In this document: piece by piece, positions 3,687 to 63,127 of the stretch
Position numbering within the stretch: the stretch's first letter is position 1
Layout: each line of letters begins with the position of its first letter
Origin: Labedella gwakjiensis
GTDB taxonomy: Bacteria; Actinomycetota; Actinomycetes; Actinomycetales; Microbacteriaceae
Reading direction: 5' to 3'
NCBI RefSeq assembly: GCF_003014675.1
Contig: NZ_PYAU01000001.1
Location: forward strand, 1,302,001 to 1,366,000
DNA: 64,000 nucleotides
Translations under genes and position numbers: made by a program
Notes under the pieces: model-generated
What the model saw: the letters and a program-made list of their open reading frames with translations, nothing else
Databases searched by the model: none
What the model was told of the DNA's origin: nothing

Positions 3687-4988
3687 ATGTCACGCCATCC
3701 CCGGTCCCGGTTCATGCGGCTCGCCGCCCTCGCGGCGGCAGGCGCACTCGCTCTCGGAGCGACGGTGACGGAGTACAGTCCGCCGTCGGCAGTCGCGCTC
3801 GCTCCTCTCCCGGTGTTCACGGAGGTCGGCGAGATTACCGTGGACTCGCAGCTCACCTACAACCCCACCGGCGAGCAGATCTTCCCGAGCGTCCTGCACG
3901 CATCCGAGTACTTCGCGAACCCGCTGGGCGAGTGGTACCTCTACTACGCACCCCACGAGAACCCCGGCGGAATCTCCCTCATGTACGCCGACGACCTCGA
4001 CGGACCCTGGACCGAACACACCGCCAACCCGGTCGTCGCCAACGTCTGGCAACCCCACTACTCCACCTACCACGTCTCCAGCCCCGACGTCATCTGGAAC
4101 ACCCAAGCCGACAAGCTCTTCCTCTACTTCCACGGCGGAAACGACGTCACCCGCATCGCCTCCTCCGACGACGGCATCACCTTCGACTACGAGAAGATCG
4201 CCGTCGACAACGCGGCGAGCGGTACGGGCGTCACGGAGACCTCCTACGCGCGTGTCTTCCCGCACCCCGACCCCGCGTCGATCTACGAGTACGCCATGTT
4301 CTACATGGACAAGCTCGGCAACAAACGGCGCATCCGCGTGGCGGAGTCCGTGGACGGACTCGACTGGGTCGTCCGTCCCACCCCGCTTGTCGGAGGCGGC
4401 TCCGACGGCGACAACGTGTCCGGAGGGAACCTCTGGGAGTGGGAGGGACAGCTGTACGTGATCTACCACGCCGGTTCCGGTCGCATCCATTCGCGCACCG
4501 TGGATCCCACCCTCACGACCACCGGGCCGCTCGTCGCGCTCTACGGCCTTCCCGACCCGGCAGACCCGACGAAGCTCATCCGCGCGGCGGCCCCCGAGAT
4601 CGTCTCGGCCGAAGGCAAGACGTACCTCTTCTATGAGCAGGGCGACCGTCTGAACGCCACCATCTCCCTCGCCGTGTCGGACGCCTACCCGAGCGATCAG
4701 CCGTTCGACGTGGACGCGACGGCCACGTCGACGTGCGCGAACGGCGTGGCCCGCGTCACGGTTCGTGCTCACAACGAGTCGGGACGGGCTGTCGACATCG
4801 GGATCGCGACGTCGTACGGGGGCCGCCAGTTCAACGGGGTCGCCGACGGCGCCACCGTCGCACCCACGCTCTCGTCCGGCGGGGCGTCGATCCCCTCGGG
4901 AACCGCGACCATCACGCTCGTCGTGCGTCCGAACGGTGTCGCCACATCCGCGACGATCACCGCCCCCTATACGGCGATCACCTGCTGA
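3687..4988 (+). CDS. Secreted five-bladed beta-propeller glycosidase-like protein
   Basis: This 433-residue secreted protein has a Sec signal peptide at residues 1-38 (LAALAAAGALALGATV core). The body has the repeated pattern of GH43/GH117-like five-bladed propellers: WYLYYAPHENPGG at about residue 88, then SSPDVIWNTQADKLFLYFHG, YARVFPHPD and RIRVAESVDGLDW. These are blades that typically read as patient, context-dependent sugar-cleaving folds. The last 90 or so residues form a beta-rich tail with two cysteines (STCANG and the terminal ITC), perhaps a binding module. A strong site, ttggagga, precedes the ATG. Sitting behind a sugar importer, it may release the imported sugar outside the cell. 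Catalytic residues were not identified with confidence, so activity is inferred. Confidence 0.65.
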   Translation: MSRHPRSRFMRLAALAAAGALALGATVTEYSPPSAVALAPLPVFTEVGEITVDSQLTYNPTGEQIFPSVLHASEYFANPLGEWYLYYAPHENPGGISLMYADDLDGPWTEHTANPVVANVWQPHYSTYHVSSPDVIWNTQADKLFLYFHGGNDVTRIASSDDGITFDYEKIAVDNAASGTGVTETSYARVFPHPDPASIYEYAMFYMDKLGNKRRIRVAESVDGLDWVVRPTPLVGGGSDGDNVSGGNLWEWEGQLYVIYHAGSGRIHSRTVDPTLTTTGPLVALYGLPDPADPTKLIRAAAPEIVSAEGKTYLFYEQGDRLNATISLAVSDAYPSDQPFDVDATATSTCANGVARVTVRAHNESGRAVDIGIATSYGGRQFNGVADGATVAPTLSSGGASIPSGTATITLVVRPNGVATSATITAPYTAITC

Positions 4989-5024: not shown

Positions 5025-5084
5025 ATGCCGCGTTTGAGCGTGTTTGCACCGGTACAACGGTGCAAACACGCTCAAACGCGGCAT
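5025..5084. repeat. 60-bp perfect palindrome, copy A of the 27-6-27 family
   Basis: Two 27-base arms (5025-5051 and 5058-5084) are exact reverse complements around a 6-base centre, gtacaa. The arm core reads cgtttgagcgtgtttgcacc. It lies between the convergent ends of the propeller gene (4988) and the GH3 gene (5155), where it could terminate transcription both ways. There is no uridine tract. Three other copies with the same arm and spacer lengths occur at 60397, 60928 and 63068. Confidence 0.9.
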
Positions 5085-13556: not shown

Positions 13557-13595
13557 CCCTCGGCCCCGGCGGTGACCCCGCCGAGCGCTACACAT

Positions 13596-13635
13596 ACAGC
13601 CGAGCGCGCCACGATCTCGTGGCGCGCTCGGCTGT
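13596..13635. terminator. Bidirectional hairpin between convergent PadR and pdxY genes
   Basis: A perfect 40-base palindrome has 19-base arms (acagccgagcgcgccacga) around TC. It sits midway between the ends of padR (13556) and pdxY (13666). No strong uridine tract follows on either side, so it would act as a GC-rich bidirectional terminator or an mRNA end-protecting hairpin. Confidence 0.75.
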
Positions 13636-13665
13636 TCCTGTCGCGCTCGGCGACGTCCGGCCGGG

Positions 13666-49682: not shown

Positions 49683-49729
49683 CCCCGCCCCACCCTCACC
49701 CCACCCCGCCTCATCCACCTCCCAGACAC

Positions 49730-49783
49730 CAAAAAGATTCCGATACGGCACGAAATTTCGGGCTGTATCGGAATCTTTTTGGG
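49730..49783. repeat. 54-bp near-perfect palindrome between convergent genes
   Basis: Two 27-base arms meet at cgaaatttcg with no spacer and two mismatches only. The outer part reads ccaaaaagattccgatac and its complement ends in ctttttgg, giving short T and A runs on both sides. It lies between the VOC gene (end 49682) and the semialdehyde dehydrogenase gene (end 49821). Probably a bidirectional terminator; sequence differs from the other palindromes in the window. Confidence 0.85.
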
Positions 49784-49820
49784 GTATTGGTGGTGGGCGG
49801 GGGGGCGAGGGAGGAGGGGG

Positions 49821-60396: not shown

Positions 60397-60456
60397 ATGC
60401 AGCTTTTGAGCGCGTTTACACCGCTATATCGGTGTGAACGCGCTCAAACGCTGCAT
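60397..60456. repeat. 60-bp palindrome, copy B of the 27-6-27 family
   Basis: 27-base arms (core gcttttgagcgcgtttacac) surround ctatat, with two mismatches between arms. It lies between the GntR gene (end 60365) and the VOC gene (end 60534), a convergent pair. The arm core differs from copy A at positions 5 and 17, and both changes are matched on the opposite arm. Confidence 0.9.
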
Positions 60457-60927: not shown

Positions 60928-60987
60928 TTGCAGCTTTTGAGCGTGATCACACCGGTACAACGGTGCAATCACGCTCAAAAGCTGTCT
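60928..60987. repeat. 60-bp palindrome, copy C of the 27-6-27 family
   Basis: Arms have core cagcttttgagcgtgat and centre gtacaa. The extra change a for t at position 19 is matched by t on the other arm. It lies between the glyoxalase-like gene start and the glycosidase gene stop at 61020, so both neighbours are on the minus strand. The outer three base pairs do not match. Confidence 0.88.
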
Positions 60988-63067: not shown

Positions 63068-63127
63068 ATGCAGCTTTTGAGCGCGTTTCCTGCGGTATAC
63101 CGGTGCAAACGCGCTCAAAAGCTGGAT
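63068..63127. repeat. 60-bp palindrome, copy D of the 27-6-27 family
   Basis: 27-base arms with core gcttttgagcgcgttt surround the self-complementary gtatac. Mismatches between the arms lie near the loop and the outer end. It lies between the glycosidase gene start (63041) and the GH130 gene stop (63167), both on the minus strand. Confidence 0.88.

Follow-up and report, generated by a model that had tools for sequence, protein, structure and literature searches.

Results

Four palindromes in the window and their family in the genome

The window analysed here is a stretch of 64,000 nucleotides (positions 1302001-1366000) of the genome of the soil bacterium Labedella gwakjiensis (Microbacteriaceae), which is assembled as one contig of 3,838,939 bp. 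Next to genes for a GH3 protein, a GntR/FCD regulator, a glyoxalase-like protein and a GH130 protein, it carries four 60-bp palindromes (Table 1). All four had been recorded in the first-pass annotation, and we recovered each of them with TTTGAGCG and a 6-base centre; the contexts given there, two copies between convergent and two between same-strand genes, were reproduced with a simple gene caller. That annotation had also described compensating differences between the arms. This is true of arm positions 5, 17 and 19, but other positions are uncompensated (e.g. position 8 of the copy at 60397, T versus C), and the arms are imperfect, with Watson-Crick pairs in 28, 26, 24 and 25 of 29 paired columns (27 arm columns and 2 outside) for the copies at 5025, 60397, 60928 and 63068, respectively. 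The four copies reach scores of 28, 21, 18 and 20 in a palindrome scan, compared with at most 12 in three shuffles of the window, and their predicted folds range from -46 to -78 kcal/mol. The genome holds 16 matches to the exact core pattern and none to a control with the pattern written backwards; together with the shuffle scans, these counts exclude a chance origin. Rfam gave no match to the window at gathering scores, and weaker matches at palindromes in five loci, all to animal and plant microRNA families, were taken as chance.

Table 1. Palindromes of the window and genes located between palindromes
Feature	Position	Size or geometry	Surroundings	Remarks
Copy 1, subfamily A	window 5025..5084	27-6-27	convergent: 424-aa protein with sub-threshold GH43 match / GH3	GCCGCG head
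Copy 2, subfamily A	window 60397..60456		convergent: GntR/FCD regulator / glyoxalase-like	
Copy 3, subfamily A	window 60928..60987		same-strand: glyoxalase-like / 673-aa protein without Pfam match	TGAT arm
Copy 4, subfamily A	window 63068..63127		same-strand: 673-aa protein / GH130	inner arm imperfect
Separate palindrome	window 13579..13652 (wider 13574-13657)	36-2-36	between convergent genes	9-nt GCCGAGCGC repeated at exactly 19 nt
Linked gene, L. gwakjiensis	L050:3130-4125	331 aa	between places 895499 and 896742 (subfamily A); ribosomal protein S6 gene on one side	
Linked gene, G082	L208:1669-2676			homologue of the 331-aa protein
Linked gene, G410	L212:621-1529			homologue of the 331-aa protein

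The earlier suggestion of a dispersed structural element is borne out by covariation (see below) and by the genome-wide covariance-model search that had been proposed with it: far from lacking further copies, L. gwakjiensis has the palindrome in at least 40 places, 33 from a first model and 7 from a second, 39 of them full length (place 2781732 is a poor match of 58 nt). Three other Labedella genomes, G001, G002 and G003, hold at least 34, 8 and 1 places; these copy numbers are lower bounds, since scoring was restricted to the top candidates (150 per genome in Labedella and the rescored genomes, 89 in one search). A sequence-blind scan of 800 kb more L. gwakjiensis DNA between the known copies (arm of at least 16, score of at least 14) found no extra copy; these limits would miss weaker copies, some of which are present in the known set. 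The copies fall into three subfamilies of the same geometry, A (GCAGCTTTTGAGCG), B (GTAGAGCGTTTGCGCCGA) and C (GTAGCCCGTTTGCGCGC). The exact core pattern was absent from viral contigs, and a 91-bp stretch containing the element matched nothing among phages and plasmids; in a genome collection that possibly does not include L. gwakjiensis, the pattern was found twice in L. endophytica and in two unrelated MAG contigs. Weak or exact-pattern matches outside the 60-bp family were seen at loci L036 (genome G052), L088 and L091. A pair of genes with similar starts (window 3714-4988 and L066:9099-10277) is followed directly by a family copy in each case (1307023 and 1280297), as if gene and palindrome had been duplicated together.

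Copies lie behind stop codons and near the origin

A gene 3' end is faced by 36 of the 40 places (18 convergent, 18 tandem, 4 divergent), as judged with a gene caller trained on the codon usage of the window, which was applied to other genera too and is blind to tRNA genes; place 1721617 was reclassified for an adjacent tRNA-Leu gene after a tRNA scan of six loci. The 54 distances between element and facing gene end cluster at 10-60 nt (42 ends), with 4 overlaps and 3 distances above 100 nt. None of the 40 places lies wholly within a called gene, and two overlap a gene end on their left side. Two palindromes, those at 1689311 and 1821317, contain the called stop codon of the gene upstream, and their arrival probably altered the last residues of the encoded protein. 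Gaps of at least 80 bp in the window are 4 convergent, 18 tandem and 8 divergent; relative to these, the places differ in their ratio of convergent to divergent orientation (p 0.01), and the ratio of non-divergent to divergent gives p 0.11.

These positions are what would be expected of bidirectional transcript-end hairpins, that is, a conserved family of terminators or 3'-protecting stem-loops selected as RNA, and the strong predicted folds agree with such a function. The sequence beyond the hairpin does not: a U-tract is absent, with 0-2 T in the next 12 nt at 46 of 52 ends and three or more at 6 of 52. The 40 nt before the element have a C content of 0.56 and a G content of 0.21 (52 gene ends) as compared to 0.45 and 0.28 after 29 stop codons of the window; both 52-end counts leave out places 2781732 and 1721617.

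The family is also unevenly distributed along the chromosome. With dnaA at 1,653,232, 37 of the 40 places fall into the origin-proximal half (p about 1e-8), as do 19 of 22 clusters once neighbours are merged (p 4e-4), with the origin located by means of dnaA and a weakly pronounced GC skew. Palindromes that differ in sequence from the family are equally frequent in 400 kb far from the origin (20) and 400 kb near it (19), and the tandem copies have no leading or lagging bias (9 to 9). Chromosome-organising sites of the Noc or SlmA type, placed near the origin, would account for this clustering. We nevertheless judge it highly improbable that the palindromes are such sites: binding to half-sites has no need for two-sided compensation, the copies sit at gene ends, their subfamily varies between species, and one congener has just one recognised copy.

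Pairing of the arms is maintained irrespective of the transcribed strand

The 72 copies from four Labedella species that we aligned (39 of 40 from L. gwakjiensis, without 2781732, 30 of 34 from G001, 2 of 8 from G002 and 1 of 1 from G003) fit without gaps over 64 columns, and the 27-6-27 geometry is fixed. Cells are paired in 86.3% of cases, compared with 69.9% after shuffling; two-sided changes occur in 25 of 29 pairs, and 385 cells are compensated versus 159. The covariation signal is present within subfamily A alone and within subfamily B alone; in subfamily A, the count of pairs changed on both sides does not rise above that of shuffles, 214 of 500 of which attained it.

Among 34 tandem copies (places 1721617 and 2781732 excluded), the sense strand has GU and AC mismatches at 26:17 in 18 copies of L. 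gwakjiensis and at 18:26 in 16 copies of G001, giving 44:43 in total. With no preference for the sense strand, these counts give no support to RNA-hairpin selection as the chief reason for the pairing. Indifference to the RNA strand instead points to the DNA, whether through a hairpin or cruciform, correction of one arm by the other, or copying of whole elements, and pairing thus seems to be kept at the DNA level. The first-pass annotation had considered a terminator family, an idea that is favoured by the position of the copies and by unrelated hairpins at some orthologous gene ends (see below), but disfavoured by the missing U-tract and the balanced mismatches. In addition, termination requires neither a conserved sequence nor a fixed length of 60 bp nor three subfamilies. 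We therefore regard transcript-end hairpins selected as RNA as a rather unlikely explanation for the family.

Labedella species differ in subfamily, copies and adjoining segments

By similarity of their flanks, 25 L. gwakjiensis copies could be paired with one of 30 G001 copies. Other pairing rules gave 24 shared sites, 14 with both flanks kept and 10 with one only, the latter being synteny breaks. At these ten sites, the match reaches to 3-144 nt from the L. gwakjiensis element and to 2-140 nt from the G001 element; at 944435 alone, the distance to the G001 element is 905 nt. The subfamily differs at 5 of the 14 two-flank sites: 1239568, 1362395, 1362926 and 2016321 carry A in L. gwakjiensis and B or C in G001, and 1446860 has the reverse.

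Two segments of 6.7 kb are each bounded by two elements that match a single element of G001, so that an operon and its 3' palindrome are present or absent as a unit. The segment at 1608632-1615354 is an oligopeptide-ABC operon, and that at 1774163-1780885 a LacI/GH42/ABC operon. The equal spacing of 6722 nt in the two element pairs is a coincidence, as the compared parts have only the element region in common. When half of one of these cassette operons was compared with three congeners, the best matches had 67-70% identity and were taken as paralogues. A 34-kb segment (1272874-1307023) is similar in G001, but about 1 kb of other DNA stands on the left side there.

Seven of the 40 sites were examined for what occupies orthologous gaps, with four non-colinear rows dropped. 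Of 8 orthologous gaps that have no family copy, 5 contained another hairpin (score of at least 14), compared with 5 of 26 non-family gaps of the window, and the gene end at 1690819 has four different hairpins in four species; the enrichment is a further point for a role at transcript ends. At orthologous gene ends of two congeners (L152 in G002 and L166 in G003), palindromes with CTGAGCYTGTCGA arms take the place of the family.

Dispersal in many copies, subfamilies, location at gene ends, synteny breaks, and operons that are present or absent between species together with a 3' palindrome are all features of decayed non-autonomous transposons of the MITE or REP type, moved by a transposase. 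A REP-like nature had been raised before and is half right: the copies are extragenic, numerous and at 3' gene ends, but no RAYT was found and the candidate partner gene (see below) is a different one. As for the association with a transposase, which the first-pass annotation had proposed to check, the Y1 family (Y1_Tnp, PF01797), the only one searched, had no match in the four Labedella genomes and was detected in 5 of 14 control genomes. We also recognised no target-site duplication in the aligned sites, and several genera have one and the same protein family beside palindromes that are unrelated in sequence. That the family consists of such decayed elements, with the AbiEi-like gene described below as a passenger, is therefore improbable.

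Palindromes of five other genera share a 19-nt spacing

Among 398 Microbacteriaceae genomes, for each of which 13 candidates were scored, at least 13 had a match at E 1e-4, four of them Labedella; rescoring of 13 chosen genomes left 11 with matches, two of them Labedella. The palindromes of other genera are 58-71 bp long and genus-specific in sequence, with several copies in G082 and G410 and two each in G023 and G125. Most are at gene ends; that of L209 lies inside a called gene and that of L223 between divergent genes.

In G082, G410, G023, G393 and G116, each arm has a motif of 6 to 12 nt that is repeated directly with an offset of exactly 19 nt; the repeat is absent in G125 and in an extra copy of G002. 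Shuffled arms matched the observed run at offset 19 in 23, 6, 0, 0 and 27 of 20,000 cases for G082, G410, G023, G393 and G116, and at any offset in 101, 68, 1, 3 and 331 of 4,000. The G116 repeat taken alone is modest, and the common 19-nt offset across genera is striking. One 20-kb stretch from each of 17 other genomes (G082 among them) was also scanned, which gave six palindromes, none with a 19-nt repeat. Within the 60-bp family of Labedella the spacing is weakly developed: of the three subfamilies, only A has 19 as its best offset (0.47 of positions).

The separate palindrome of the window (Table 1) has the same spacing, its GCCGAGCGC repeat at 19 nt being reached in 1 of 20,000 shuffles, and is possibly a second family of the same kind. 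A family of palindromes with CGAGCGCTACAG-like sequence occurs at window 13574-13657 and at genome positions 1010853, 1906852 and 2885462, its arms repeating runs of 5-9 nt with a 19-nt offset. Another dispersed palindrome family, with CCCCAAAAAGATNNCGATACNNCACG-like arms, is found at window 49693-49818 and at 281504, 864217, 1910177, 2209869 and 2218544, five of the six at gene ends.

An AbiEi-like protein is encoded between palindromes

One protein family is encoded between two palindromes in Labedella and in two other genera (linked genes in Table 1). The G082 and G410 proteins are 33-42% identical to the 331-aa protein of L. gwakjiensis, the reading frame of which has a copy about 120 nt upstream; upstream copies are also present in G082 and G410. 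Of ten palindrome pairs less than 1.6 kb apart (three each in L. gwakjiensis, G001 and G410, one in G082), three enclose the linked gene and seven do not, as judged by tblastn (e.g. 1362395-1362926 and 1689311-1690819).

These three genes came from inspecting the neighbourhoods of palindromes. Free of that bias are four homologues from a plasmid collection, obtained by protein search alone: three from Tsukamurella tyrosinosolvens, on records that look chromosomal by gene content, and one from Collinsella aerofaciens. A profile search that included the 800 kb of additional L. gwakjiensis DNA returned just the three genes and these four; in the 29% of the L. gwakjiensis genome that the linked-gene searches covered, no gene linked to subfamily B or C was found. 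Phages had no match to the protein, and none of 34 stretches with its pattern in viral contigs was confirmed.

All four plasmid-collection genes are flanked by repeats on both sides, clearly so in three (two species) and without significance in L242. The flank units are CGCTGCCG at 19 nt on both sides in L241, GGGGGA at 19-22 nt in L243, inverted pairs of GTTACAGAT in L244 and CCCGCGGGAA in L242. Repeat sharing between the two flanks exceeded all 300 shuffles in six of seven loci, and the plasmid-collection four gave counts of 33, 64, 53 and 5 versus 0-8 in 11 control genes of the same loci; the count of the L. gwakjiensis locus, 14, does not fall outside what 57 window genes show (median 4, 90% 11, maximum 23). 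Inverted repeats inside a single flank are not distinctive relative to control genes. Repeats at offset 19 number 3.0 per flank window of the seven genes versus 0.11 per control window and, summed over the loci, 19 is the commonest of the offsets 10-40 (42 matches, followed by 26 at 15). The L. gwakjiensis and Collinsella loci contribute 0 to the offset-19 count, and L241 has more repeats at 15.

Repeats of this kind also occur away from the genes. A lone Tsukamurella copy of 59 bp (CGCTGCCG-19-CGCTGCCG-inverted) lies about 200 nt behind rpoC and is 77% identical to the gene flank on another record, its own record having a different homologue (L243) about 20 kb away. The flank repeat of Collinsella is found in 14 places of its record, and the 50 kb that were read comprise two array clusters, one beside the gene, and one single motif. 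An array of this repeat at L285:8881-9087 lies about 8 kb from the nuclease-like gene and between divergent genes. Overall, the link between palindromes and this gene family rests on seven loci in three Actinomycetota families, three of them reached from palindromes, and three of the four unbiased ones being clear.

PADLOC models of AbiEi match the N-terminal half of three of four proteins tested, with E down to 3.7e-16, the Collinsella protein being without a match. Pfam gave sub-threshold matches only (AbiEi_4, DUF5548 and, in Collinsella, DUF559), and the PDB gave none. Seven linked proteins have in common E206, E210, R214, D242, G252-E253-x-D255-G256 and K259 (L. gwakjiensis numbering), which we read as a PD-(D/E)XK-like pattern in the C-terminal part, making the protein a candidate nuclease. 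AbiEii was absent from the four called neighbours tested, namely both neighbours of the L. gwakjiensis gene and one each in G082 and G410 (ribosomal protein S6, a solute-binding protein, a lipoamide-dehydrogenase-like protein and an IMPDH protein), and the annotated neighbours of the four plasmid-collection homologues are not described as AbiEii.

Discussion

The family of Labedella palindromes, its geometry and its habits are well established by the data presented here. For their origin, we favour the interpretation that the palindromes are operator-like target sites of an AbiEi-nuclease family and have spread in the manner of REP elements, to which we assign a probability of just under one half. 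Each 60-bp palindrome would then represent two inverted 27-bp sites; similar families in other genera have two copies of a motif per arm, 19 nt apart. The predicted partner is a small protein combining an AbiEi-type DNA-binding part with a C-terminal PD-(D/E)XK-like part; a gene with a palindrome on each side would make up the complete unit, and the solitary copies would be dispersed sites of this unit. This would parallel the relation of REP elements to RAYT proteins, though with a partner that is nuclease-like. We infer that the protein might bind the palindromes and cut DNA, and that cutting and repair could copy the element into new sites. Copies would survive just 3' of stop codons, where insertion is presumably harmless and a strong hairpin may also end or protect transcripts.

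A more novel proposal, somewhat less probable, is that Actinomycetota might harbour a new selfish or regulatory repeat system, in which a gene for a putative AbiEi-PD-(D/E)XK-like fusion is bracketed by a fast-changing target of about 60 bp (motif, 19 nt, motif, inverted) that is also dispersed at gene ends and marks the boundaries of cassette gain and loss. Simple autoregulation of the linked gene could account for part of the pattern, and a function as transcript-end hairpin may be a side benefit or the reason why copies are retained. If the interpretation is correct, RAYT transposases would not be the sole owners of a dispersed palindrome family, and proteins now annotated as lone AbiEi antitoxins would gain a role at the DNA level, their targets being apparent from the sequence beside each gene. 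Some of the long terminator-like palindromes at gene ends of high-GC actinobacteria and at the edges of gained or lost cassettes would likewise be explained. Among the best matches listed in a literature search of titles and abstract openings, which leaves most subscription papers outside, nothing concerned such palindromes in Microbacteriaceae or repeat-bracketed AbiEi-nuclease genes; this is weak evidence of absence.

Several known systems resemble parts of this arrangement. As hairpins behind stop codons, the palindromes are similar to Rho-independent and bidirectional terminators, but the Labedella element has no U-tract, is fixed in length and sequence and lacks strand asymmetry. Integron attC sites are palindromes of about 60 bp at the 3' end of gene cassettes, and whole cassettes are present or absent. 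The Labedella palindromes share the length, the location at gene 3' ends and the presence or absence of cassettes; in contrast to attC, they are symmetric and dispersed and form no array.

REP and REPIN elements carry a GTAG-type head beside a small hairpin. Copies of subfamilies B and C often start with GTAG, those of A mostly do not. Points of likeness are the dispersal of short palindromes at 3' ends and in convergent gaps, the division into several classes, the many solitary copies and, perhaps, a single partner gene. The Labedella element differs in being one continuous 60-bp palindrome and in its candidate partner, which is AbiEi-like with a nuclease-like domain. One article describes the habits of REP elements (PMC1525189), and another covers families of stem-loop repeats in 40 genomes (PMC2267715).

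The closest parallel on the protein side is the operator of type IV AbiE toxin-antitoxin systems. AbiEi of S. agalactiae is reported to bind two 23-bp inverted repeats that are 3 bp apart, and Rv2827c binds two pairs with a 13-bp gap (PMC7319586); on these figures, the sites would measure 49 or 59 bp in all. Paired inverted repeats of this size, and an N-terminal part that matches AbiEi models, connect the linked protein with AbiE. Such pairs upstream of the AbiEi-like gene are formed by the bracketing copies only, the other L. gwakjiensis copies being solitary. Unlike an AbiE system, the linked gene has no AbiEii among its tested neighbours, its palindromes flank it on either side and recur at other places of the genome, and its product carries an extra C-terminal domain.
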